Origin: Myxococcales bacterium
Lineage (GTDB): Bacteria > Myxococcota > Polyangia > Polyangiales > Polyangiaceae
DNA length: 10,859 nucleotides
NCBI GenBank assembly: GCA_020430865.1
Contig: JAGQIY010001195.1
Span: 1-10,859 of the forward strand
Direction of reading: 5' to 3'
In this document: positions 1 through 10,859 of the stretch, piece after piece
How positions within the stretch are numbered: the first letter of the stretch is position 1
How the letters are laid out: each line of letters opens with the position of its first letter
Notes under the pieces: model-generated
Told to the model about the DNA's origin: nothing
Databases searched by the model: none
What the model saw: only the letters and a program-made list of their open reading frames with translations
Made by a program: the position numbers and the translations under genes

Positions 1-1885
1 CGGGCGCGACGCCGAGCGCGGTGAGCGTCGCACTCAGCGCGTCCGCCTCTCGGTGGTCGAGATCCAGCAAGCGACACCAGGCCTCCTGCGCGTCTCGGCC
101 GCGGCCGAGACGCGCGGCCGCCAAGGCGATCGCAGCCACCGCGTCGACCGAGTCTGGGTCGAGGCCGAGAGCACGCTGCGCGACACTGATTGCCTTGTCC
201 GCCTCTCCGATGCTCGCCAGCACGCAGCTGCGCAGGGCGAGGGTCAGCGCGGGGTAGGGGTTCTGGTCCGTGCTGAGCGCGGCGAGCGCGGTGTGTGCGC
301 GCTTCACCCAGATCGGTTCGTTGTGACGACGATCCACGCGCACCGCCGCCCACGCGAGCGCCAGGCGCGCGGGATCCGACTCGGGATCGTCTCGATAGGC
401 TTGGTCGGCTTGGTGCAACGCCTGATCGGAGAGCCCGAGCTCGATCAACAGGCGCGCGACGCTGGCGCGCACCTCGGGCTCTAGCAGCGGAAACGCGCCC
501 AGGGCTTCGAGCTCGGTCGCCGCCGTCTCGTCTCGGCCGAGCTGGATCAGCGCCCGACAGCGCATCAGGCGTTGCTCTGGGTCGCTGGCGTGAGGCTGCG
601 CCGCATCCAGCACTCGGTCCGGGTGCCCTTCGTCGAGCCAGCTCGCGAGCTGAAAGAGCGAGGTACCGGGATCCGGAGGCGGAGGTACCGAGCGTACCTC
701 CCGCAGGTTGTGTACCTTCGGCTGCGCCTCACGAACGGCGGCCCGAGGCTGGGCGTCAGAGACCTCGGGCGCCGCGGGGGTGCTCGAGTAGAGGCCCGCT
801 CGTGGCGGAAGCTGGCTCTTGCGCTTCAGCGGATCGTAGGCCGTGAACTCGATGGCGGGGTACTCTCCGCTCGGAGAGAGGGAGCCACCGCCAGGCCCAG
901 CGGGCTCGACCTCGTTTGCGCGCGGAATCAAATTGGGAACGGCGGGCGCGCGTGGGATGGCCACACCGACTGGTCCCGGTGTGGGTCCAGGACGTTGACT
1001 GCCGTCGCTCAGGTTGGAAGAGAGGGCGGGCTCGGCAGGCGACATCACCTGCGCCTGCCGGCTTGGCTCCGGCGCTGGGACGTTGGGTGGTGCCGGCACC
1101 CTGGGCGGTGGGGGAACGGAGCTCACGTGCAGCGCGGCGCTGCTACCTGCGTCGGTCAGCTTGGGGCCGAGCTGATCGAGAGGCGGGACCGTGGACGCGC
1201 CGGCGCGCAGGGACGGAGGGAGATCGGGGATGGGGAGCGAGTCCATGGGTCGCGCGGCGCGCGGTCCGAGGCTCGGGATCACCCAGGCAGGTTCCCCGCT
1301 CTGCTCGGCGTTGGTCTCACTCGAGGCAGCCCAGGCGCGAGGCAGGCCTGGCGCCTTGGGGATGCTGGGACGGATGGCCGCGCCGAGGTCGTCCTCGCTC
1401 GCCGAGGGAGTCAGGTCGAGGTCGTCCTCCGTCCCGGCATCGCCGAGGTCGGGCTCGTCCGGGATCGGCGCATCGGAATCGTGATGCACGATGGCAGCCT
1501 GGGTCAGCACCTGGTGGTGGGGCTCGGAGTCCCTGCGCTGGGTCGCGGCGGCCTCGCTTCGCCTGGCTTCCTTCTCCAGCTTCAGCTTCCGGGCGGTGCC
1601 AAACTCGGTCAGCTCGCCCGAGCGCGCGGCTTCGAGCAGCGTGGTTGCCTCCGGGAAGCTCGTGACCTCCTTGAGCAGATCCTCGAGGCGCTGGGCCACC
1701 TCCTCGGCATCCAGTCTCCCGCGCAGAAACAGCAGACGCGTCGTCAGGTAGGCGGTCGCGTGGCGAAACAGCTCGATTTCCCCGAGCTGCATCAAGGCTG
1801 TAGCGGCGCGGTCCAGCTCTCGAGCGTCCAACAACTCGTCAATCTCACGCAAGCGAGGCTGATCGAGCGGTCCGGCGGAGGCCAT
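1..1885 (-). CDS. TPR-like protein with long Pro-rich linker (C-terminus outside the window)
   Basis: I translated this frame by hand: it is open from an ATG at 1885 to the left edge, 628 codons, with no stop. An in-frame TGA five codons upstream fixes the start; only a G-run precedes the ATG, so the ribosome site is poor. Residues 1 to about 115 are alpha-helical and charged. Residues from about 115 to 425 are low complexity, first acidic (Asp/Glu), then rich in Pro, Ala and Ser with PPPP runs, so probably disordered. From about 430 onward there are paired helices with TPR-like spacing (for example a repeat with GEADKAISVAQRALGLDPDS). No enzyme motif, signal peptide or membrane segment is visible in the part seen. 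It is probably a cytoplasmic protein-interaction scaffold. It follows the kinase gene after 137 bp and could be cotranscribed, but no partner is shown. Function unknown; gene call firm, TPR assignment moderate. Confidence 0.82.
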   Translation of the reverse strand, partial: MASAGPLDQPRLREIDELLDARELDRAATALMQLGEIELFRHATAYLTTRLLFLRGRLDAEEVAQRLEDLLKEVTSFPEATTLLEAARSGELTEFGTARKLKLEKEARRSEAAATQRRDSEPHHQVLTQAAIVHHDSDAPIPDEPDLGDAGTEDDLDLTPSASEDDLGAAIRPSIPKAPGLPRAWAASSETNAEQSGEPAWVIPSLGPRAARPMDSLPIPDLPPSLRAGASTVPPLDQLGPKLTDAGSSAALHVSSVPPPPRVPAPPNVPAPEPSRQAQVMSPAEPALSSNLSDGSQRPGPTPGPVGVAIPRAPAVPNLIPRANEVEPAGPGGGSLSPSGEYPAIEFTAYDPLKRKSQLPPRAGLYSSTPAAPEVSDAQPRAAVREAQPKVHNLREVRSVPPPPDPGTSLFQLASWLDEGHPDRVLDAAQPHASDPEQRLMRCRALIQLGRDETAATELEALGAFPLLEPEVRASVARLLIELGLSDQALHQADQAYRDDPESDPARLALAWAAVRVDRRHNEPIWVKRAHTALAALSTDQNPYPALTLALRSCVLASIGEADKAISVAQRALGLDPDSVDAVAAIALAAARLGRGRDAQEAWCRLLDLDHREADALSATLTALGVAP

Positions 1886-2022: not shown

Positions 2023-4110
2023 CTATTCGGCTGCTGGTGTCGCGGCGCTCCCGCTCGTCTGGAAGTCCATGGCGCAGCGGAAGCCGTAGCCATAGGACTG
2101 CGTGTCCGGCGTCGCGGAGTAGCGGAACGACGGGCGCAGCCAGGCCTTGTAGCCGCCGTTCCAGGCACCCCCGCGAATCACGCGCTTCTCGCCGGTCTTG
2201 GGTCCATGAGGATCCACCTGGGCTTCCGAGGTGTATGGACCGTCGTAGTCCGCGACCCACTCCCACACGTTGCCGACCACGTCGAAGGGACCGAACCGCG
2301 ACTTCCCTGCGGGGTACTTCCCGACCGGCGCCGTGGTGGGGAAGCCGTCGTCGGCATCATACAGGGGCGTCAAACGCTCGCCGTGTTCCTGTCCCCACTT
2401 CACGCACTCGCTACCACAGGCGTTGAGGTGCTTCTCCGTCGGATCTTCGTCGCCCCAGGGATAGATCCGTCCGTCGGGGCCCCGGGTGGCGTACTCCCAC
2501 TCCGCCTCGGTGGGCAAGCGCTTGTCGTGCGCCTTGCAGTACGTGTCAGCCATCTGCCAGGTGACGCAGTTGATGGGGTGATCGCCGCGCCCCTCGACGT
2601 CGTTGATGTTGCAGAGCGGACCGTAGACCTTGCGTTGCTTCGCGGTAATGCCTTCCCACTCGACGTCCTTGGGAGCGCGCCGACACTTCCCCATGTCGGA
2701 ACACTTCTTGTACTCCGTGGTGGTGACCTCATACAGGTCCATGCAGAAGGCCTCGAGCTTGACGTTGTGGGAGGGCTTCTGGTTGGCCATCGCGTCGTCT
2801 TGATCCGAGCCCATGAAGTACTGACCAGCTGGGATCTTCACCGTGCGGTCGGGGCACTCGAAGGGCTTCTCCGCAACGCTTGGGGCGGCACTGGGAAGCG
2901 GCGTCGTGGCGGACTGAGCTGGCTCCTGGGGATCGTCACCGCGATTGAGGGCGAAGAACGCGCCGACGCCCAGCACGGCGACCGCTGCCACGCCAATGCC
3001 GGCGAACAGCAAGCCTTTTCCGCCTGGCTTTTCTTGTTGTGGGTCCAGCGTCGCCGGGTTTCCGGTGGTCGGCGAGCGCGGATTGACGTGGGTGGGGATG
3101 TTGCTCGCGAGCACCGTGGCGCCCGCGGCGAAGACCTCGGCCGCCGGTGCCGGGTTGGAGACCACGGCGGGGCCGGTGAACCCGCAGGCGATGGCGAACG
3201 CCTGGATGAACTGGCCGGCGCTGGCGTAGCGCTCACTGGGTGAGATCTTCAGTGCCTTCCCGAAGACTGCCTCCACCTGATCGGTTACCTGTGCGCCCAG
3301 GTTGCGTGGCGTCGGGCGCGCCTGGGGGTTGGCCGAGCTGAACGCCAGCTGCACCAGATCGCCGCCGTCGAGCGCCGGGCGGCCAATCAGCATCTCGATC
3401 GCCACCAGCGCCAGGGCGTAGACATCGGTCCACGGTCCCGTCGCCCCATGAGAGCGCGAGAACTGCTCTGGCGCTCCGTACTGGGGGGTGAAGCTGGTGA
3501 TGCTGGTGCCCGTCTTGGCGAGCGCAGCCTGGAGATGAGTGTTGTCGCTCATCATCTTCGCGACGCCGAAGTCGAGCAGCTTCACCGTGGCGCCTCCGGC
3601 GTGGGGATCGCCGTTGACGAAGATGTTGGCTGGCTTGATGTCGCGGTGGGCGATGCCGCGCCCGTGGGCGATGTCCAGCGCCATGGCGACCGGCTCGAGC
3701 AGCCGGTACACCTCCACGACCGACCAGGGCTGAGCGCCTGCCTGCTGCTCCGCATCCAGGATCGCGTCGAGCGGGCGCCCGTCCAGCCACTCGAGCACCA
3801 TGTACGGCATCCACTGACCGCTCGGCGACGTGTACGTGCCGACGTCGCGTGCCTGGACGATGTTGGCCGAGTGGCTCGAGAGCTCAGTCAGCAGCGCGCC
3901 TTCGTTGATGAAGTCCTGCATCAGGCTCTCGCGCTGATCGACCGGGGCCGACGACAAGCCGTTGAAGAACTTGATCGCGACTGGCTTGTTCCAGATCGTG
4001 TGGATGGCGCGGTACACGACGGCGAAGCCGCCTTCGCCGACGAGGCGCTCGACACGGTACTTCTCGGCGACGACTTGGCCGGCGAGGTTCAGGGGGTCGC
4101 GATCTGACAT
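2023..4110 (-). CDS. Transmembrane Ser/Thr protein kinase fused to a C-terminal FGE/SUMF1-like domain
   Basis: This 695-residue protein has three parts. Residues 18-305 are a Hanks-type kinase: glycine loop GEGGFAVVY (25-33), ATP lysine K47 in VAIKFF, helix-C Glu likely E70, catalytic loop HRDIKPAN (155-162), DFG at 180-182 and APEQ at 213-216. All catalytic residues are present, so it should be active on the cytoplasmic side. A Pro/Ala/Thr-rich juxtamembrane stretch leads to one membrane helix at about 366-387. Residues about 417-680 form a formylglycine-generating-enzyme-like domain (IPAGQYFMGS, RLPTEAEWEYATRG, PWGDE, VVGNVWEWVADY, RVIRGGAWN, GFRCA), predicted outside the cytoplasm. The two active-site cysteines of true FGE, expected after the RGGAW motif, are absent (NGGYKAWLRPSFRY instead), so it is more likely a sensory or binding module than a sulfatase activator. 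A weak AAGGA lies 15 nt before the ATG. Substrates are unknown; the architecture recurs in myxobacteria and planctomycetes. Confidence 0.95.
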   Translation of the reverse strand: MSDRDPLNLAGQVVAEKYRVERLVGEGGFAVVYRAIHTIWNKPVAIKFFNGLSSAPVDQRESLMQDFINEGALLTELSSHSANIVQARDVGTYTSPSGQWMPYMVLEWLDGRPLDAILDAEQQAGAQPWSVVEVYRLLEPVAMALDIAHGRGIAHRDIKPANIFVNGDPHAGGATVKLLDFGVAKMMSDNTHLQAALAKTGTSITSFTPQYGAPEQFSRSHGATGPWTDVYALALVAIEMLIGRPALDGGDLVQLAFSSANPQARPTPRNLGAQVTDQVEAVFGKALKISPSERYASAGQFIQAFAIACGFTGPAVVSNPAPAAEVFAAGATVLASNIPTHVNPRSPTTGNPATLDPQQEKPGGKGLLFAGIGVAAVAVLGVGAFFALNRGDDPQEPAQSATTPLPSAAPSVAEKPFECPDRTVKIPAGQYFMGSDQDDAMANQKPSHNVKLEAFCMDLYEVTTTEYKKCSDMGKCRRAPKDVEWEGITAKQRKVYGPLCNINDVEGRGDHPINCVTWQMADTYCKAHDKRLPTEAEWEYATRGPDGRIYPWGDEDPTEKHLNACGSECVKWGQEHGERLTPLYDADDGFPTTAPVGKYPAGKSRFGPFDVVGNVWEWVADYDGPYTSEAQVDPHGPKTGEKRVIRGGAWNGGYKAWLRPSFRYSATPDTQSYGYGFRCAMDFQTSGSAATPAAE

Positions 4111-4308: not shown

Positions 4309-5133
4309 TCAACCGCTGCCGAGCAGCGCTCCGCGCTCCGCCAAATCCGCGAGCACGCGAGCAGTGCCATCCAGCACCTCCTGAGTGAGTGAGACACCTA
4401 GGACCGAGCAGCCATCGAGCAATGCCTGCTGCAGGGGAATTCCTGCCAGCAGACCCTCCAGGATCTGGGCGGCGAGTGGTGTCAGCTCCAGGTAGCGCAC
4501 CTCGTGGCTGGGGCTACGGTAAACGAGCAACGCGACCGCGCGCTGCTCGGGAGGCTCCTCGTCGGTCTCGTCTTCGCTCAGCTGGTGCACCGCGTGCTCA
4601 TAGCGCACCAAGCGCGCCGCCTCGATGAAGCGGAGGGGCTTGTCCAGCTCGAGCTCCCCGGGCTCTTCGTCGCTGGCGCGCGCGGCCTCGGACGCGACCT
4701 CGATACGTAGCGCTTCGTGGCGCGCCAGCGCCATCAGGTAGTCGGGGATCTGCCGATCGTCGGGCCACAGCGGCTCGCAGTAGTCGAGGAACTCCCGGGT
4801 CACGTCGCGCAGGTAGTGGGTGCGGGGACCGTCCGCTGCGAGCCAGCGTGCGAGGTAGTCCTCGAACACGTGTGTTCCCATGCGATAAATCGCGCGGGGG
4901 ATCGCGAGCTCGATGGCCCCCTGGACGTTGCCGCGCACGAGCCTGCGATAGACGGCGAGCCTGCCCAGGCCCGTGCGCAGGATCGCGTCGCGGTCCTCAG
5001 GGTGCACCCCGGCGTCGATGAGCCAGCTGGAGATGGCGTGGGGATCGTCCTCGACCTCGGCCCCCAGGGCGAGCCGCGCCATGGCGGTCTCCAGAGCTCG
5101 AGCTCGCTCGACCTCCGCCTCGCGACTGCTCAT
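4309..5133 (-). CDS. MNIO partner protein, DUF2063-type (BufC/HvfC-like)
   Basis: The 274-residue protein matches the pattern of partner proteins that act with DUF692 oxidases. In that family the partner binds the precursor peptide and presents it to the iron enzyme in the cytoplasm. The N-terminal half is all-helical and typical of DUF2063: RLAVYRRLVRGNVQGAIE (58-75), an IPRAIYRMGTHVFEDYLARW run (78-97), and LRDVTREFLDYCE (108-120). After an acidic linker (about 153-198), a C-terminal region with a strand-rich start (VALLVYR, 200-206; VRYLELTPLAAQILEGLLAG, 212-231) resembles the peptide-recognition region of BufC/HvfC. The start at 5133 is set by an AGGAGGG ribosome site and an ATGA overlap with the stop of the upstream MNIO gene, so the two are translationally coupled. 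The same frame is open further upstream to 5850, but that part is a shadow of the MNIO gene. The MNIO link supports the assignment despite low expected identity in this family. Confidence 0.85.
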   Translation of the reverse strand: MSSREAEVERARALETAMARLALGAEVEDDPHAISSWLIDAGVHPEDRDAILRTGLGRLAVYRRLVRGNVQGAIELAIPRAIYRMGTHVFEDYLARWLAADGPRTHYLRDVTREFLDYCEPLWPDDRQIPDYLMALARHEALRIEVASEAARASDEEPGELELDKPLRFIEAARLVRYEHAVHQLSEDETDEEPPEQRAVALLVYRSPSHEVRYLELTPLAAQILEGLLAGIPLQQALLDGCSVLGVSLTQEVLDGTARVLADLAERGALLGSG

Positions 5134-6005
5134 CCGACCCTCCTGTTTCGCGCCTCCCAGGCCCCGATCGCTCGCTGGTAGGTTTCGCGCAGGCGCTGCA
5201 CCTCCGAGAGCAGCTCGGGGAGCTCGGGGACGTCGTTGTCCCGTTCGAGCAGCACCGGCCGGGGCCCGCTGCGCTCGAGCGTCCACTCCAGGAGCTCGTA
5301 GACCGGGTCGATGATCGGGGCACCGTGAGTATCCAGCAGCATGCCGTCTTCGAGCTCCGTGTGTCCCGCGACGTGGATCTGCACGACGCGCTCCAGGGGC
5401 AGCTCGGAGATGAACCCATAGGGATCGAAGCCGTGGTTCTGCGCGTTCACGTAGACGTTGTTCACGTCGAGCAGCATCCAGGCCTGGCTCTTGTCGAGCA
5501 CGCGATTGATGAAGTCGGTCTCGGATAGCTCGGGGGCGCCGGGGTGCGCGTACCAGCTGATGTTCTCGAACGCCATGGGAACGCCCAGCGCGTCTTGCAC
5601 TCGCAGCAGCCGCTCGGCGGCCCGGTCCGCCGTGTGCTTGCACAGCCTGAGCGGCAGCAGATCGTGGAGCACGAGCGGACCGGCGGTGCTGAAGCACAGG
5701 TGGTCCGAGTGCCAGGGAGAATCCATGCGGATAATCTCCTGCTTGAGCTCGTCCAGGTAGTCTCTGGGCGGGTCGTCCACCGCGCCGAGGGAGAGTGTCA
5801 GCCCGTGGGTGACGAGGGGATAACGTTCTCGCACCTTGGCCAGCGCCCACGGGAAGTAGCCGCCGCGCCGCATGTGGTTCTCCGGCGAGACCTCCCAGAA
5901 GGCGACGTCGAGCTGGGGGCCCTCCATCACCTCTTCGAGGAAGTCCCAGCGCAGGCCGAGGCCGACACCGAGGCGATTCTTGGGCACGAGAGTCGGAGTC
6001 GTCAC
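5130..6005 (-). CDS. DUF692-family multinuclear non-heme iron-dependent oxidase (MNIO; BufB/HvfB/MbnB-like)
   Basis: Members are TIM-barrel enzymes with two or three iron atoms that use O2 to modify cysteines of ribosomal peptides, for example to oxazolone/thioamide or thiooxazole groups that bind copper. The 291-residue product has the family's usual length and motif series: RLGVGLGLRW (11-20), WEVSPENHM (37-45), LVTHGLTLSLG (64-74), WHSDHLCFS (98-106), AFENISWY (145-152), LLDVNNVYVN (178-187), QIHVAGH (209-215), DTHGAPI (225-231) and LLERDND (252-258). The His, Glu, Asp and Asn residues expected to hold the irons are all present, so it should be active and cytoplasmic. I chose the GTG at 6005, just before the conserved N-terminus; a TTG at 6065 would add 20 unconserved residues. 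Neither has a strong ribosome site. It overlaps the partner gene by 4 bp. The likely substrate gene lies upstream at 8321-8758. Family certain; exact chemistry inferred. Confidence 0.95.
   Translation of the reverse strand: MTTPTLVPKNRLGVGLGLRWDFLEEVMEGPQLDVAFWEVSPENHMRRGGYFPWALAKVRERYPLVTHGLTLSLGAVDDPPRDYLDELKQEIIRMDSPWHSDHLCFSTAGPLVLHDLLPLRLCKHTADRAAERLLRVQDALGVPMAFENISWYAHPGAPELSETDFINRVLDKSQAWMLLDVNNVYVNAQNHGFDPYGFISELPLERVVQIHVAGHTELEDGMLLDTHGAPIIDPVYELLEWTLERSGPRPVLLERDNDVPELPELLSEVQRLRETYQRAIGAWEARNRRVG
5138..5144 (-). promoter_or_regulatory. Ribosome binding site deciding the partner-gene start
   Basis: AGGAGGG on the minus strand ends 4 nt before the ATG at 5133, inside the last codons of the MNIO gene. 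It is the best Shine-Dalgarno I found in the window. With the 4-bp ATGA overlap it points to coupled, near-equal synthesis of oxidase and partner. Confidence 0.8.
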
Positions 6006-6112
6006 GCTCTGAGAGTACGCGCCAGACGCCCGTTGGTTCGAGTCCGAGTCGAATCCCTCGAGCAATCCGCGGTCGCCTGACCTCGGCCCTCGGGTGGCGC
6101 CCGGAGTGGTGG

Positions 6113-6128
6113 TTTCAAATCTTTGAAA
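6113..6128. promoter_or_regulatory. AT-rich palindrome upstream of the MNIO operon
   Basis: TTTCAAA and TTTGAAA form perfect 7-bp arms around a 2-nt spacer. The site sits in a short AT-rich island between the 615-residue lipoprotein gene and the MNIO start, in otherwise GC-rich DNA. The size and symmetry fit a dimeric repressor or activator site controlling the MNIO pair. No T-run follows, so it is not a good terminator. No clear -35/-10 pair is visible; the regulator is unknown. Confidence 0.4.
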
Positions 6129-6158
6129 TCATTGTGAATTTAGGCGGAATGGGGGCGC

Positions 6159-8006
6159 CTACTTGATGGGCGGCGGCTCGTAGATGCGCTTCACGTCTGC
6201 CCCACCCGCGAATGCATAGGAACCGGCGCTGCCATAGCCATAGGCCACGATGCCGAACGGTACGTCCCCGCCCAGGCGGTGGGCGCCCTCTGCGAGCGGA
6301 CACACCCGGCTCTCGTAGCTGACACCGTCGATGGTGCCCGCGGGCTCCACCGTGCACCCGGACGTCGGCGCGCCGTCGATGTTGATGTTTGCCCCCTGGG
6401 GCGTCGAGATCACGACGTAGTTCTTGCTCCAGGACGGTGGCGTCAGGATCACGTACTCCGTGCGGAACTGGTCGACCGGCGGGAAGACGGTGAGCGACGG
6501 ATCACCGGTGTAGGGGCCTTGGACGCGGCCCTGGCTGACCAGCAGCTGCCCGATCATGATCGGCGTCGTGGAGGTGACGGTGACGTTGTCCTGGGCCGGC
6601 GCGGTGACGGTGTCCCCCGGGTTCAGCGTGAAGTTGTCGTAGGGCGGCGCCAGGCTGGTCGTCACCTGAGCCGTCTCGGCCACGCCGAGGAAGCGCAGCA
6701 CGTCGGGCTCGCGCCAACCGCCAGTCGAGCGCACCGGGCTGCGGGTGATCACGTACTTGCTGCCCAGGGACTCCGCGGGGAACATCTGCTCTTCGAGGTG
6801 ATCCAGGCAGCACGACTCGCCGCCGTTCCCGTCATCCCAGCCGGGGTATGTCGGGATGTCCCACGAACCAGGAACGCTCGTGCTCTCGACCCCGCTGAAC
6901 ACCGCGACCGGCTTGTCCGCCTGCACCACCGTGCCGGTGAGATCGGCAGTCGTCTTCGGGTCGTCCTGGAGCGTACCGTCGTCCGTTTCCAGGTTCAGCA
7001 CGTCGTAGGGTCCGAGGGTGACCTCGATCAGTCCCCCCGCGGGAGTCGCCGCGATCGGGCCGTTTCCGCGGATCCGCCAGGATGGCTTCACGCTGACCTT
7101 GGTGTTCGCCTGGGTGCCAACGACGGTCACGTACGAGCGGTCGATTGGCGAATTCAACACGCTGACGGGGTGTCCAGCGTTCCAGTTGATGATGCGGTAG
7201 ACCTTGCCCAGGGCGCTGGTTGGCAACAGCAGCGAAGCATCGTTGGAGTACTCGTTCGTGAAGACGTTGAACTGATAGACGACGATCGGGCTGCTGCTGG
7301 TGATCTTGAACGCGCGCGACGAGAGGCAGGTGCCGGGTGAGTTGTAGTCGTTCGGCTTGGTGCCGCAGTCCAGCTCGCGGGCGGGCAGCACCACCGTCTG
7401 CAGGCTCCCCGCGGGCACCGTGAGCTGCTTGACGGGCTGCAGCTGCAACGGATCCCCTGGCTTCGCCAGGTTCGCGTCGATGGTGATGTTCGCGCTGCCG
7501 TCTCCGGCGTTCGACAGCACCAGGCCCCAGGGGGCGCTGGCGGGGTCGTTCAGCGCGTCCTGCTGATCCAGGTCGACGCTCCAGAACTCACAGCCCACGT
7601 TGGAGGGTTGATCGGCGGCGATCTCACAGGCCGTGCCGCAGCGCCCGTTTCCGCACAGCTCGCCACTGGCGACGTCGCACACCTCGACCACCTCGTCGGT
7701 GTTGCTGCCATCGCTGGAACACTTGTGGACCTCGTTGCCGAAGCACACCGTTTCCTCGGGGGTACAGTAGCTGCAGCCCAGATCCGGCGTGCACGCCTCT
7801 TCACACTCCACGGGCTCTTGCGGTTCGCCGTCGATGCAAGGGGTGTAGGTCTGGCCCACGCAGCCGTTGCAGAACATGCCGCCGTCGGCGCCACCGTTCC
7901 CGCCGTTGCCTCCGCTGTTACCGTCCACCCCGCTGCTGCTGTTGCTCGCAGAGCAGGCAAAACCCAGGAACAAGAAGCCCAGACCGGCGATCAAGTGGCG
8001 AAGCAT
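6159..8006 (-). CDS. Cys-rich lipoprotein with IgGFc-binding-like domain
   Basis: This 615-residue protein starts at an ATG with AGGA 7 nt upstream. A hydrophobic signal (4-17) ends in GFAC, with Cys18 the probable lipid-anchor site; the lipobox is atypical (Gly at -3, Phe at -2). A Ser/Gly/Asn linker (19-45) leads to a region with 14 cysteines (46-139), like the EGF-like or knot-like modules of myxobacterial surface proteins. Residues about 230-605 resemble the IgGFc-binding-protein N-terminal domain: repeated beta stretches such as SSSPIVVYQFNVF, DKPVAVFSGV and TTPIMIGQLLVSQG, and an end with FGIVAYGYGSAGSYAFAGG. In bacteria this domain occurs on exported surface proteins, with unknown ligands; real antibody binding is not implied. 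It sits between the small lipoprotein and the MNIO pair, 153 bp before the GTG at 6005. Residues 118-124 read CGNGRCG, the motif seen in the putative MNIO substrate, but this also fits an ordinary Cys-rich module. Role unknown; domain call fairly firm. Confidence 0.88.
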   Translation of the reverse strand: MLRHLIAGLGFLFLGFACSASNSSSGVDGNSGGNGGNGGADGGMFCNGCVGQTYTPCIDGEPQEPVECEEACTPDLGCSYCTPEETVCFGNEVHKCSSDGSNTDEVVEVCDVASGELCGNGRCGTACEIAADQPSNVGCEFWSVDLDQQDALNDPASAPWGLVLSNAGDGSANITIDANLAKPGDPLQLQPVKQLTVPAGSLQTVVLPARELDCGTKPNDYNSPGTCLSSRAFKITSSSPIVVYQFNVFTNEYSNDASLLLPTSALGKVYRIINWNAGHPVSVLNSPIDRSYVTVVGTQANTKVSVKPSWRIRGNGPIAATPAGGLIEVTLGPYDVLNLETDDGTLQDDPKTTADLTGTVVQADKPVAVFSGVESTSVPGSWDIPTYPGWDDGNGGESCCLDHLEEQMFPAESLGSKYVITRSPVRSTGGWREPDVLRFLGVAETAQVTTSLAPPYDNFTLNPGDTVTAPAQDNVTVTSTTPIMIGQLLVSQGRVQGPYTGDPSLTVFPPVDQFRTEYVILTPPSWSKNYVVISTPQGANINIDGAPTSGCTVEPAGTIDGVSYESRVCPLAEGAHRLGGDVPFGIVAYGYGSAGSYAFAGGADVKRIYEPPPIK

Positions 8007-8320
8007 GGCGAAATCCTAACGGCCGTTTGGCTGGCGCCACAACAGAACTATCTTGCTGATTCGACAATCACCGAGCGAAGTTTCCCGCGCGACTGGAGGC
8101 TTGCGCTGTGGCTGTCCGCGACGGACGTCACCCGGGCTGACCTACGCAAGGCCAGGTGCCATTTCTCGGGTTCGGGGGTGAGGCGCGCCGTCGTACCCCG
8201 AGCTGGCACCGTATTTCCACAGGGAAGCGTCCTGCAACGAACGCGAACAGGCCGCTCGAGCGCTTGCTCGAACGGCCTGTCCTCCTCTGTCTTGAATGCT
8301 GCCCGCAGGCTTGGCGCTGA
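8007..8320. other. 314-bp intergenic region between the two lipoprotein genes
   Basis: It holds the hairpin at 8247-8280 next to the small lipoprotein gene, and the leader of the 615-residue lipoprotein gene with AGGA at 8014-8017. On the minus strand TTGTCG is followed after 17 nt by TGTTGT, a poor promoter match (3 of 6 at the -10), so I do not call it. I see no plausible gene on either strand. Confidence 0.6.
8247..8280 (-). terminator. Strong hairpin after the small CGxGxCG lipoprotein gene
   Basis: Arms 8247-8261 and 8266-8280 pair over 15 bp around a 4-nt loop, starting 40 nt past the stop codon. In the minus-strand RNA the stem is unbroken with one U-G wobble; in plus-strand RNA the same position is a C-A mismatch, so the structure suits minus-strand transcription. 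No full T-run follows (TTCGCGTTCGTT), so it may be a terminator of a GC-rich host or a stabilising 3' end. It would make the small lipoprotein message largely separate from the genes below. Confidence 0.65.
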
Positions 8321-8758
8321 TCAGCCGCAGGTGCCCGCGCCACAGCCGCCGCTCGCGCCCGCCGACTTCTTCGGGGCCGGCTTCTTTGCCGCCGGCTTCT
8401 TGGTGGCGCCGCAGCTCCCGGCGCCGCAGCCCGCCTTCGCACCAGCGGCCTTCTTGGGCTCATCCTTCTTGGCCTCTTCCTTGCCGTCGCTGCCTTCGTC
8501 GGCCTTGGAGTCGCCGTCCATGGCGCCGTCGCCTTCGGGCGCGGCGGTGTCTTCGGTGGCTTCGCCGCCCTCGGCGCCAGCGGCCTCGTCCGCAGCGTCC
8601 TCCATCGGGGCCTCGGGGGCTTCCGCCGCGGGGACCTCCTGGGCATCCACGGGGGACTCCGGCTCGGGCATGGCGTCACCACCGCAGGCGACGAGGCCCG
8701 AGGCGCTGAGGACGGCGAGAGTGGCGGCGATGCGGTTGAGGCTGAGCTTGTTCGACAT
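8321..8758 (-). CDS. Small acidic lipoprotein with two C-terminal CGxGxCG motifs; putative MNIO substrate (HvfA-like)
   Basis: The 145-residue product begins at ATG 8758, 11 nt after AAGGAG; a GTG at 8770 overlaps that ribosome site and is unlikely. Residues 1-24 are a signal peptide ending in lipobox LVAC, so Cys25 is probably lipidated after export. Residues 28-100 are acidic and low complexity (Glu, Asp, Ala, Pro, Gly); residues 94-132 turn Lys/Ala/Pro rich. The only other cysteines form two motifs, CGAGSCG (111-117) and CGAGTCG (139-145), the second ending exactly at the C-terminus. This C-G-x-G-x-C-G pattern is that of a doubled EGKCG motif in HvfA-type peptides, which MNIO enzymes modify for copper binding. 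An MNIO and its partner are encoded on the same strand 2.3 kb away. I infer that it is a lipid-anchored metal-binding peptide and the substrate of that pair. The alternative is an unmodified thiol-rich envelope lipoprotein. Its own hairpin fits the abundant expression expected of a substrate. Gene call firm; role moderate. Confidence 0.85.
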   Translation of the reverse strand: MSNKLSLNRIAATLAVLSASGLVACGGDAMPEPESPVDAQEVPAAEAPEAPMEDAADEAAGAEGGEATEDTAAPEGDGAMDGDSKADEGSDGKEEAKKDEPKKAAGAKAGCGAGSCGATKKPAAKKPAPKKSAGASGGCGAGTCG

Positions 8759-8769
8759 GGGTGATTTCA

Positions 8770-8775
8770 CTCCTT
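8770..8775 (-). promoter_or_regulatory. Ribosome binding site deciding the small lipoprotein start
   Basis: AAGGAG on the minus strand lies 11 nt before the ATG at 8758. It abuts the in-frame GTG at 8770, leaving no spacing for that codon, so the ATG four codons in is the likely start. Confidence 0.6.
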
Positions 8776-9124: not shown

Positions 9125-10120
9125 TCAGCGCTTCGGTACCAACACCAGCTCCAGGCTGACCCGGACCTGACTGCCTGCGCGCTTCAGCAGGTCGCTCTTT
9201 GCTGCTTGCAGCACACCGTGTGCGTCCCGCGGCTTGATGTCGTGATCGGCGAAGTTGATGCGCAGCGGCTTGGTGGTCTTCAGCACAATGCGCTCAGGAG
9301 CGTTGCCCGCTGCGGCAGGTCCCTTGAACTCCAGCAGGGCTTCCATGTTCGCAGATGTTGCCTTGCGGAAACCATTTAGCGCGAGCTGCCCGTTCACGCT
9401 GAGGTGCGTGCGTCGGATCTCTCCCGGGAGGTTGGCCGGGTTCGGGTGCTCCCCGGTCTCTGGTGCGGGCTCCTCCAGGTCGTAGAGTTCGATGTCGCCT
9501 TGGGCGTTGCGCCGCTCGACCGGCTGCCTTGGCGAGGCTGGAGCGGCGGGGGCCGCCGAAGGCGCCGCTCCGCTGCTGCCCGAGGGGGCGGGGGGTAGCA
9601 GCTTCTTGACGAGCTTGGCCTCGAAGGCGCTCGCTGGACGCGCGGAGTCCAGCGCTTGAAACTCGAAGCGAGCCCAGCGGCTCTGCTCTCGTGCCGCTTC
9701 CGCGCGGCTTGAACCGACGTTGAGCCAGTTGCGCGCACGCTCGGCCTGGAGCTTGTTGTCGTCGTCCGACTCGAAGCTGTTCATGCGGAGCGCTGCGACG
9801 TCCACTTCGACATGGCCCGAGCTGTGTTCGAGATCGACCAGGTTCACCTTCACCTCGCCGCGAACGACGCCGATGCTGCCCGTCGAACTGACCTCACGGC
9901 TCTTGAGTTCGAAAGTCAGCTTGCTCTCGCTCGCGATGCGATAGGTCACCAGCTCGTCGGAGCTCGGCTCGTCGACGGGATGCGCGGGCCTCGGATCCGA
10001 CGGCACGTAGAGGTTCTCCGACCTGTCGTCGCAGCCCACGGCCGCGCTGCTGACAGCGCTCACCAGCAGGGCCCAGCCGAGACCGCGCCAGCGGGTCGGC
10101 GGAGTGAGTCGAGGGATCAC
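9125..10120 (-). CDS. YceI-family lipoprotein with Pro/Ala-rich insertion
   Basis: YceI proteins are exported lipocalin-like beta-barrels; characterised members bind polyisoprenoids in the periplasm, and others are linked to envelope or acid stress. The 331-residue product from GTG 10120 has a hydrophobic signal (13-29) ending AAVGC, with Cys30 the likely lipid site followed by two Asp, which in E. coli would favour inner-membrane retention; whether that rule holds here is unknown. The YceI fold is recognised from VTYRIASESKLTFELKSREV (58-77), RGEVKVNLVDLE (87-98), HVEVDVAALRMNSF (103-116), THLSVNGQLALNGFRKATSA (238-257) and the C-terminal strand VRVSLELVLVP (319-329). Residues about 174-235 are a Pro/Ala/Ser-rich insertion not usual in the compact 170-190 residue family. 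An in-frame GTG at 10135 is an alternative start; upstream extension to 10282 would overlap the neighbour and lacks support. There is no clear ribosome site. The family call is good; the ligand is unknown. Confidence 0.85.
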   Translation of the reverse strand: MIPRLTPPTRWRGLGWALLVSAVSSAAVGCDDRSENLYVPSDPRPAHPVDEPSSDELVTYRIASESKLTFELKSREVSSTGSIGVVRGEVKVNLVDLEHSSGHVEVDVAALRMNSFESDDDNKLQAERARNWLNVGSSRAEAAREQSRWARFEFQALDSARPASAFEAKLVKKLLPPAPSGSSGAAPSAAPAAPASPRQPVERRNAQGDIELYDLEEPAPETGEHPNPANLPGEIRRTHLSVNGQLALNGFRKATSANMEALLEFKGPAAAGNAPERIVLKTTKPLRINFADHDIKPRDAHGVLQAAKSDLLKRAGSQVRVSLELVLVPKR

Positions 10121-10206: not shown

Positions 10207-10859
10207 TCAGTGCCAGACGCCTACGCTCGCGCTCCAGCCGAAATAGCGGGCTGCGGCGTCCAGCGCGCCCCCCACGCGCCACTCCGTACCGTCGTCGAAC
10301 AGACCGAACACCGTCCAGGGGAACGTCTTCAGGTCGAAGCCGAAGGTGCCGTGGAGCCGCGGGCTGCCGGCGCGGTAGCGCGAGGGCTCGCCATAGCTGC
10401 CGGCCCGTAGCTTCAGCCAGTTCGGGACGATCTCGCTCTCCACACCGACCCGCGGCGATAGCGTGACCTTCTCGCCAGCGCGGGCCACCCGGCGCTGGAT
10501 GAAGCTCTCCACGCCAACCGAGCTCGGTGACTGACCGACCAGCTGAAGCTCCGTGGAGATCAGCACGTAGCTCCGCTTCATCTCGCGGGCGCGGCGCACC
10601 AGGGTCTGGCGCAGAGCGCGCGCCTGACGTTCGAGCTCCAGCTCGTCGAGCGCGTCCTGGGTCGCGGACTGTGCCCGCAGGGCCCGAAGCTCCGCGGGCG
10701 TGCGCTGCTTCGCCTCTCGGCGTAGCCGCCTCGCGCGCTCACGCTTGCGAAACTCGACCACACGTTCGAGCTCGGCGATGGCGCGCCCCGGGTCGGTCCA
10801 GTGGGGGTTTAGGGGGCGAGGGCCGAACTGCAGCGCGAGGCCGACGCTCGCCTCCCACG
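10207..10859 (-). CDS. Outer-membrane beta-barrel-like protein, C-terminal part (N-terminus outside the window)
   Basis: The frame is open from the right edge to a TGA at 10209-10207, giving 216 residues. I found no stop upstream of the in-frame GTG at 10761, so that codon is internal. The visible part begins with a strand-like WEASVGLALQFGPRP, then a highly charged helical stretch of about 75 residues rich in Arg, Glu and Ala, which may form a coiled coil or plug. After that come alternating beta segments with aromatic ends (YVLISTELQLVG, VTLSPRVGVESEIV, LKLRAGSYG, LHGTFGFDLKTFPWTVFGLF, WRVGGALDAAARYFGWSAS). This pattern, with a Gly- and aromatic-rich C-terminus, fits an outer-membrane barrel of the UPF0164/PorV-like kind, but I cannot name the family. 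It ends 86 bp before the YceI start and may share its transcript. Coding call good, function tentative. Confidence 0.7.
   Translation of the reverse strand, partial: WEASVGLALQFGPRPLNPHWTDPGRAIAELERVVEFRKRERARRLRREAKQRTPAELRALRAQSATQDALDELELERQARALRQTLVRRAREMKRSYVLISTELQLVGQSPSSVGVESFIQRRVARAGEKVTLSPRVGVESEIVPNWLKLRAGSYGEPSRYRAGSPRLHGTFGFDLKTFPWTVFGLFDDGTEWRVGGALDAAARYFGWSASVGVWH

Follow-up and report, generated by a model that had tools for sequence, protein, structure and literature searches.

Gene content of the locus

The DNA analysed here, a stretch of 10,859 nucleotides on contig JAGQIY010001195.1 of a Myxococcales bacterium (hereafter the window), carries on its minus strand the genes for a small lipoprotein precursor (LPP), an MNIO (DUF692) maturase and a partner protein of the PME1 type (PME). 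The LPP gene (8321..8758) starts at ATG 8758 and encodes 145 amino acids comprising a signal peptide, a lipobox, a linker and two cysteine-containing cores; an in-frame GTG at 8770 precedes this codon, and the closest homologues begin at the ATG. The MNIO gene (5130..6065) starts at either TTG 6065 or GTG 6005 and its product matches PF05114 with E=2e-87. Its stop codon at 5130 overlaps the ATG 5133 of the PME gene (4309..5133, 274 amino acids) as ATGA, preceded by AGGAGG, confirming the initial annotation of an intact MNIO translationally coupled to a DUF2063-type partner. PME combines a DUF2063 domain with an NGO1945_C/RRE-type domain (PF09836 2.4e-8, PF22106 5.3e-15, with a query that lacked the first 6 residues), and a sequence comparison with solved structures returned no match for it.

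The lipoprotein precursor family

The cysteines of the window LPP are found exactly at positions 25, 111, 116, 139 and 144. C25, within the lipobox LVAC, is the lipid cysteine, while the remaining four all belong to two CGAG[ST]CG motifs, AGCGAGSCG (C111, C116) and the C-terminal GGCGAGTCG (C139, C144). The initial annotation had described a small exported lipoprotein on the same strand with mature cysteines only in two CGxGxCG motifs, which is what we found. The linker between lipobox and cores is rich in Ala, Pro, Lys and Glu. The protein matched no Pfam or NCBIfam family, the NCBIfam HvfA and BufA2 models included.

Among 30 sequence homologues of LPP, 29 finish in CGAGTC[GA], one of these with an additional Tyr, and the last one (P0001, 101 amino acids, annotated as partial) ends ahead of the motif; as the query contained the motif, the 30 were partly selected for it. 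Judged from this comparison, the motif in LPP is not a chance match. Mean pairwise identity among 38 LPPs was 0.61 in the core, higher than in the signal peptide (0.49) and in the linker (0.41). Conservation of the signal peptide was also considered as a sign of enzyme recognition and was not used as evidence: identity over the 20 residues before the lipid cysteine was 24% versus 15% in the YceI-like lipoproteins of 23 loci, in which the lipobox was picked only roughly.

The 124 mature non-lipid cysteines of the 38 LPPs are followed by Gly (91), Ser (18), Ala (13), His (1) or Arg (1). Lys precedes such a cysteine in 5 of the 124 cases and follows it in none, the residue preceding the core cysteines being mostly Ser, Gly or Thr. 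According to the variant data described in the text of Gadgil et al. (PMC13097082), the enzyme pair FonBC tolerates Ala, Arg or Thr at position 3, ahead of the cysteine, in double variants, allows besides Gly only Ala after it (position 5), requires two repeats, and modifies once some other 5-mers, one of them with Tyr after the cysteine. By sequence, the minimal LPP core, with two cysteines at the same spacing, mostly fits the substrates accepted by FonBC.

Association of LPP with MNIO genes

A scan of genome contigs with the MNIO as query returned 19 loci, the nearest of which (L001) comes from a metagenome-assembled genome (MAG) of Polyangia (79%). An LPP or LPP-like lipoprotein was present upstream of the MNIO in 10 of the 12 loci L001-L012. 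In L001-L005 and L007 this protein matches the LPP profile, and in L008 a look-alike was recognised by its motif. The proteins of L009, L011 and L012 have a lipobox, begin similarly and contain EVP[AG] as well as repeated SCG or SCS. The upstream region of L010 is cut by a contig end, and L002 is a near-copy of L003.

LPPs were then located without reference to the MNIO. A profile built on LPP only (A1) matched 51 of 289 genomes of the class at E<=1e-3, and of its places the best 40, which rank above 21 weaker ones and reach down to E=5.3e-5, were examined. Three of the 40 (G002, G003, G005) were loci already found through the MNIO. In 28 of the other 37, an MNIO follows directly behind LPP on the same strand. 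The remaining nine consist of three places cut by contig ends (L080, L081, L114), four unrelated lipoproteins that match A1 by signal peptide and linker alone and have no core (L115-L118), and two orphans (L076, L119). Once the contig-end and unrelated places are set aside, adjacency amounts to 28 of 30. The distance from the LPP stop to the MNIO domain is 5-300 nt in loci where no IgGFc-type gene intervenes.

A wider profile (A4) matched 28 of 377 genomes of the phylum at E<=1e-5. The 22 loci obtained (L086-L107) include 12 with an MNIO, among which L086, L090 and L107 repeat known loci, one with an MNIO fragment (L103) and nine with no MNIO in the 3.2-3.5 kb examined; of these nine, L102, L104 and L105 are weak matches and probably unrelated. 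Genomes first met in the phylum search gave only three weak matches (1e-6 to 6e-6), and on these profile matches the LPP family is likely confined to one class. In L103 the LPP signal peptide continues in one frame into the MNIO fragment, which looks like a decayed copy. Genome G011 (L093, L107) holds two LPP-MNIO loci, one of them with two consecutive LPP-like lipoproteins.

Since LPPs found independently of the MNIO precede it directly in so many places, LPP is very probably the substrate of MNIO and PME. The initial annotation had suggested this role, with co-occurrence in relatives as its check, and it is supported from both directions, with only two true orphans among the nine LPP-only places that lack the adjacency. 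It could be argued instead that LPP is an unmodified Cys-rich lipoprotein with a metal-binding or structural role, that the MNIO acts on something else, and that adjacency reflects conserved synteny, as the gene order is kept over several genes, orphan LPPs exist and an IgGFc-type gene parts LPP from MNIO in the window. However, the adjacency outlasts the loss and rearrangement of neighbours. In the 36 loci used for neighbour counts (all with LPP and MNIO, L052 dropped), kinase and YceI genes are variable and PME lies on the strand opposite the MNIO in seven (L062, L064, L067, L071, L074, L075, L079; several with an adjoining kinase). Apart from LPP, a motif scan of L001-L012 flagged only the L001 IgGFc protein, no systematic search for Cys-rich peptides having been made in L050-L079, and residue changes in the MNIO track the substrate type. 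We consider an unmodified LPP very unlikely.

The MNIO and PME enzymes

Motif and alignment mapping placed the full set of 8 Fe ligands, as well as the catalytic Asp, in the window MNIO, the ligands being taken from the VcMbnB naming given in the text of PMC8888699 and the Asp being the equivalent of FonB Asp249. Across 35 LPP-linked MNIOs these residues are invariant, save N168, which is kept in 34. The FonB Arg15 position is likewise retained. The Arg16 position, which in FonB is thought to touch Glu1 of EGKCG, is occupied by Trp in 33 of the 35 enzymes, that of the window included, and by Phe in two, a change that matches a substrate lacking EGK. At the Phe250 position the 35 enzymes carry Asn (16), Gln (8), His (6), Phe (2), Leu (1), Glu (1) or Met (1). 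As a natural variant, the system would allow the specificity rules proposed for FonB R16 and F250 to be put to the test.

In the MNIO tree, the 35 LPP-linked enzymes group with five further myxobacterial MNIOs in a single clade (99/96). Its sister is L013/L015, whose precursors match HvfA models; L015 has a long branch and unusual composition, and its placement is unsure. MNIO-PME fusions occur in L002/L003 (L003:9956-11863), L061 (L061:6647-8443), L012, L017 and six database proteins (P0031-P0036), and would be useful as single-chain enzymes for structure work.

Comparison with known systems

The system shares several features with captophorins, namely an MNIO with an intact iron site, a PME1 with DUF2063 and RRE-type domains, and a Cys-rich exported precursor beside the MNIO. 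Like the HvfABC oxazolin, fontiphorin and gonophorin systems (EGKCG captophorins), it pairs an MNIO with a DUF2063/RRE partner and an exported precursor. The two share the CxxxxC cysteine spacing and a mostly Gly residue after the cysteine, and the HvfA-linked enzymes are the nearest relatives in the MNIO tree. LPP differs from them in having no EGK, no DoxX nearby in the 21 genomes compared, Trp/Phe at the FonB-R16 position of its enzyme and a C-terminal core on a long linker, and it falls outside the three described captophorin groups (DUF2282, Lys-Cys 5-mer repeat, Cys-Lys). Buf2 bufferins (BufA2/BufB2/BufC2) also resemble it in having an MNIO, a PME1 and a Cys-rich exported precursor.

Lipidated MNIO products have been described before. 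In the text of Chen et al. (PMC12636315), acylation is shown for the NedA and DybA products (DAG-RiPPs), NedA being an acylated, -12 Da lipidated product with EGKCG, and CxxxxC lipoproteins are listed as cluster X. The DAG-RiPPs as described there have an MNIO-modified precursor with a Sec/SPII lipobox, which LPP would resemble through its lipobox pattern and presumed modification; they differ in their EGKCG repeats or CPACGMG core, in their taxa and in that the description mentions no YceI-like protein or kinase. The text of Antoine et al. (PMC12452194) reports that about 16% of Buf2 are predicted lipoproteins, that hundreds of precursors with signal peptides are unclassified, and that a CxxxxC family of 76 proteins has DoxX and, in 54%, Lactamase_B_2 as neighbours. 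As far as the published descriptions go, the CxxxxC family and cluster X resemble LPP in their signal peptide or lipobox, conserved CxxxxC and adjoining MNIO/DUF2063, whereas the CxxxxC family clusters carry DoxX and LPP loci do not. No DoxX was found near LPP in 21 genomes, the nearest on the same contig being 126 kb away, while 18 of the 21 have DoxX somewhere. Some LPPs may already be in the supplementary tables of these two papers. The initial annotation had regarded lipid anchoring as marking a distinct version: the lipobox is present, and lipid anchoring as such is not new, given the lipidated MNIO products shown in PMC12636315 and predicted in PMC12452194. What is new is the unnamed precursor family together with its setting, a YceI-like lipoprotein and a transmembrane kinase. 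The main text of PMC12452194 contains no word beginning with YceI, kinase, Polyang, Deltaproteo or Myxococc; a word search of a review of the phylum (PMC12766979) found no DUF692, MNIO, RiPP, copper, methanobactin or RRE; and no description of the LPP-MNIO-PME-kinase arrangement was found in the open-access literature searched by title and start of abstract.

Neighbouring genes and the transmembrane kinase

The window reads on the minus strand, in order, FadL-like barrel, YceI-like lipoprotein, LPP, IgGFc-like lipoprotein, MNIO, PME, kinase and the start of a TPR-type protein. The IgGFc-binding-like lipoprotein (6159..8006, PF17517 E=4.5e-61) had been included in the initial annotation as part of a distinct version of the system, and it could be proposed as the MNIO substrate itself: it lies directly before the MNIO and contains, among many cysteines, one CGNGRCG that resembles the LPP core, so that within the window CGxGxCG occurs outside LPP as well, and one CGxGxCG is also present in its L001 homologue. 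It is, however, absent from the other 34 of the 36 loci. We take this gene for an insertion, probably not part of the system, and its role as substrate is highly improbable.

Behind PME, the window encodes a transmembrane Ser/Thr kinase with a C-terminal ectodomain resembling formylglycine-generating enzyme (FGE) (2023..4110, 695 amino acids). It starts 198 nt behind PME, keeps the VAIK, HRD and DFG motifs and has one transmembrane segment at about residues 366-388. A kinase domain on the same strand within 250 nt of the PME stop, or fused to PME, was found in 20 of the 36 loci (19 of 35 when the near-copy L002 is omitted), and the kinase is thus a frequent and conserved neighbour of LPP-MNIO loci. 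An FGE-like domain was seen in 17 of these 20; in the other three, the sequence runs out at a contig end (L002, L008) or the kinase frame stops early (L004). VAIK-type, HRD and DFG motifs and a transmembrane segment were present in all 14 kinases checked. In L003 the frames of PME and kinase share 4 bases, and a kinase-FGE gene occurs 1.5 kb further on in L066. Seven further loci have an opposite-strand kinase within 3.2 kb of the MNIO, centre to centre, and eight have none within 5 kb. A small control of four other MNIO loci (L082-L085) gave no kinase match in the 6-16 kb examined.

In L007, PME, kinase and FGE-like domain are joined in one frame of 979 amino acids (L007:10836-13775). This fusion could be natural, or could be an assembly error or lost stop in the MAG, an internal Met lying about where the kinase would start. 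A PME-kinase-FGE fusion was rejected as a general rule: among the best 7995 candidates, which were those scored, a search for long proteins with a PME region gave 6, all with the MNIO Pfam domain, and L007 is a single case. The FGE domain of the kinase was also rejected as a copper-dependent formylglycine enzyme, since the two copper cysteines are absent and LCHDSYC of 6muj/2q17 aligns with AWNGGYKAW; in FGE, the two cysteines of LCHDSYC bind copper in the active site.

A YceI match occurs in 27 of the 36 loci, on the other strand in L003. The window YceI-like lipoprotein (9125..10120) has a lipobox VGC at residue 30 counting from GTG 10120, its start being uncertain; PF04264 was below cut-off, and a Foldseek comparison of the predicted model gave YceI structures as matches (E=3.4e-9). 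The FadL-like outer-membrane barrel (10207..10857), of which the window end leaves the C-terminal part, has homologues in 11 of the 36 loci, and the predicted model of that in L001 matches FadL (E 1.8e-11, pLDDT 69.7). The N-terminal part of a TPR-type protein (1..1885) lies behind the kinase; its L001 homologue has 1009 amino acids, and similar neighbours occur in 11 of 36 loci compared. The YceI-like lipoprotein, the kinase with its ectodomain and the MNIO substitution matching the substrate go beyond the initial annotation.

Proposed function

The gene content, the conservation, the active-site residues, the lipobox pattern and the MNIO clade are direct observations. From these, we consider it probable that the locus encodes a lipid-anchored metallophore of the captophorin/bufferin type, a ribosomally synthesised and post-translationally modified peptide (RiPP), its modification, chemistry, metal, localisation and kinase role being inferred. 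LPP would be made in the cytoplasm and held by the RRE-type domain of PME, while the MNIO would oxidise the cysteines in its CGxG[ST]C cores, with 5-thiooxazoles as the most likely product; by kinship with the known systems, this chemistry and copper binding are likely. The Sec/lipoprotein route would then export LPP and acylate Cys25. With Gly and not Asp at +2, LPP is, by the usual sorting rule for lipoproteins, probably destined for the outer membrane. The flexible linker would present groups that bind soft metals, Cu(I) being the most likely. A functional partner would be the transmembrane kinase, which, with its FGE-like periplasmic domain, probably senses the envelope state and adjusts modification or expression.

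Several observations weigh against this interpretation. LPPs occur with no MNIO in the stretch examined (L076, L119, which is the same as L106, L100/L111, L094/L110 and L098) and, in two cases, with no MNIO and beside an FGE protein (L095/L109, L096/L108), and conversely the closely related MNIO of L006 has no LPP beside it. The lipobox pattern and CxxxxC were present in 40 of 40 fetched LPPs, as scored by our own pattern with no SignalP, and both features were selected for, the profiles including lipobox and core. The fit to FonBC is imperfect, as the Ser found after 18 of the 124 cysteines is not among the accepted residues given in the text of PMC13097082, and the related MNIOs of L009-L011 carry Ala or Ser at the Arg16 position. 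The window MNIO scored below the NCBIfam cut-offs for HvfB (273.6 of 360) and BufB (265.3 of 310), and PME below that for HvfC (111.9 of 142, with a query short by 6 residues). With the IgGFc gene between LPP and MNIO, a single operon is not certain in the window. In 16 of the 36 loci PME is not followed directly by the kinase, and no copper gene was recognised among the conserved neighbours, though most of these families are unannotated.

The absence of a recognised copper gene, together with the kinase as neighbour, would also agree with a different product, in which MNIO and PME convert LPP to another group (oxazolone-thioamide, hydantoin or crosslinked cysteines) or LPP serves another metal or purpose, such as kinase-mediated sensing of redox or envelope stress. 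The Lys of EGKCG is missing from most LPP cores, and the F250 position is Asn, Gln or His in 30 of the 35 enzymes, a combination with Trp16 that does not figure among the tests in the parts of PMC13097082 considered here. On the other hand, according to the same text every characterised MNIO-PME1 case yields 5-thiooxazole, generally with binding of Cu, and the LPP-linked clade is sister to HvfA-linked enzymes. We regard such a different chemistry or purpose as rather unlikely, and favour the 5-thiooxazole metallophore. The latter would extend the captophorin/bufferin class by a family of myxobacterial precursors that mostly have Ser, Gly or Thr ahead of the modified cysteine, with a matching change in enzyme specificity.

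A more tentative suggestion is that the metallophore is coupled to a receptor kinase. In the envelope, the FGE-like ectodomain might read the modified or metal-loaded LPP, and the cytoplasmic kinase part might phosphorylate PME or MNIO to set the extent of LPP modification, so that the RiPP would act as both metal buffer and signal. This idea is based on the kinase lying directly behind PME in 20 of the 36 loci, with the one fusion in L007, and on the two MNIO-less LPPs that adjoin an FGE-like protein. The conserved transmembrane kinase would be the first link between a metallophore and signalling, as far as the open-access literature searched goes.

Orphan LPPs and parallel MNIO loci

The LPPs of L095 and L096 (L109, L108) end in CGEGTC[AG] and adjoin an FGE-domain protein on the same strand, and it is possible that they are substrates in trans. 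In G070 and G030 a second LPP lies beside an FGE-domain protein, with no MNIO in 15.7 and 13 kb respectively and, in G070, a distant kinase match upstream; another LPP match adjoins an MNIO elsewhere in each genome. The orphan of L119 is a second LPP-like lipoprotein with paired cysteines that lacks the CGxGTC end and has no MNIO within about 8 kb, and its genome also has an MNIO-linked LPP.

The control loci L082-L085 are other MNIO copies in the genomes of L004, L001, L003 and L007. These enzymes carry Val at the R16 site and Asp at the F250 site, the latter being the mark of the Cys-Lys group in the text of PMC13097082. No Cys-rich lipoprotein of the BufA2 type was found before the MNIOs of L082 and L085. 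A Cys-rich BufA2-like lipoprotein lies upstream of the MNIO in G001 (L083:5119-5469, 35.6 bits vs a cut-off of 60), and one similar to it by eye precedes the MNIO in G003 (L084:6681-7001). On these sequence similarities, the two genomes appear to hold a Buf2-like locus side by side with an LPP-MNIO locus, and the LPP system would be a parallel one.

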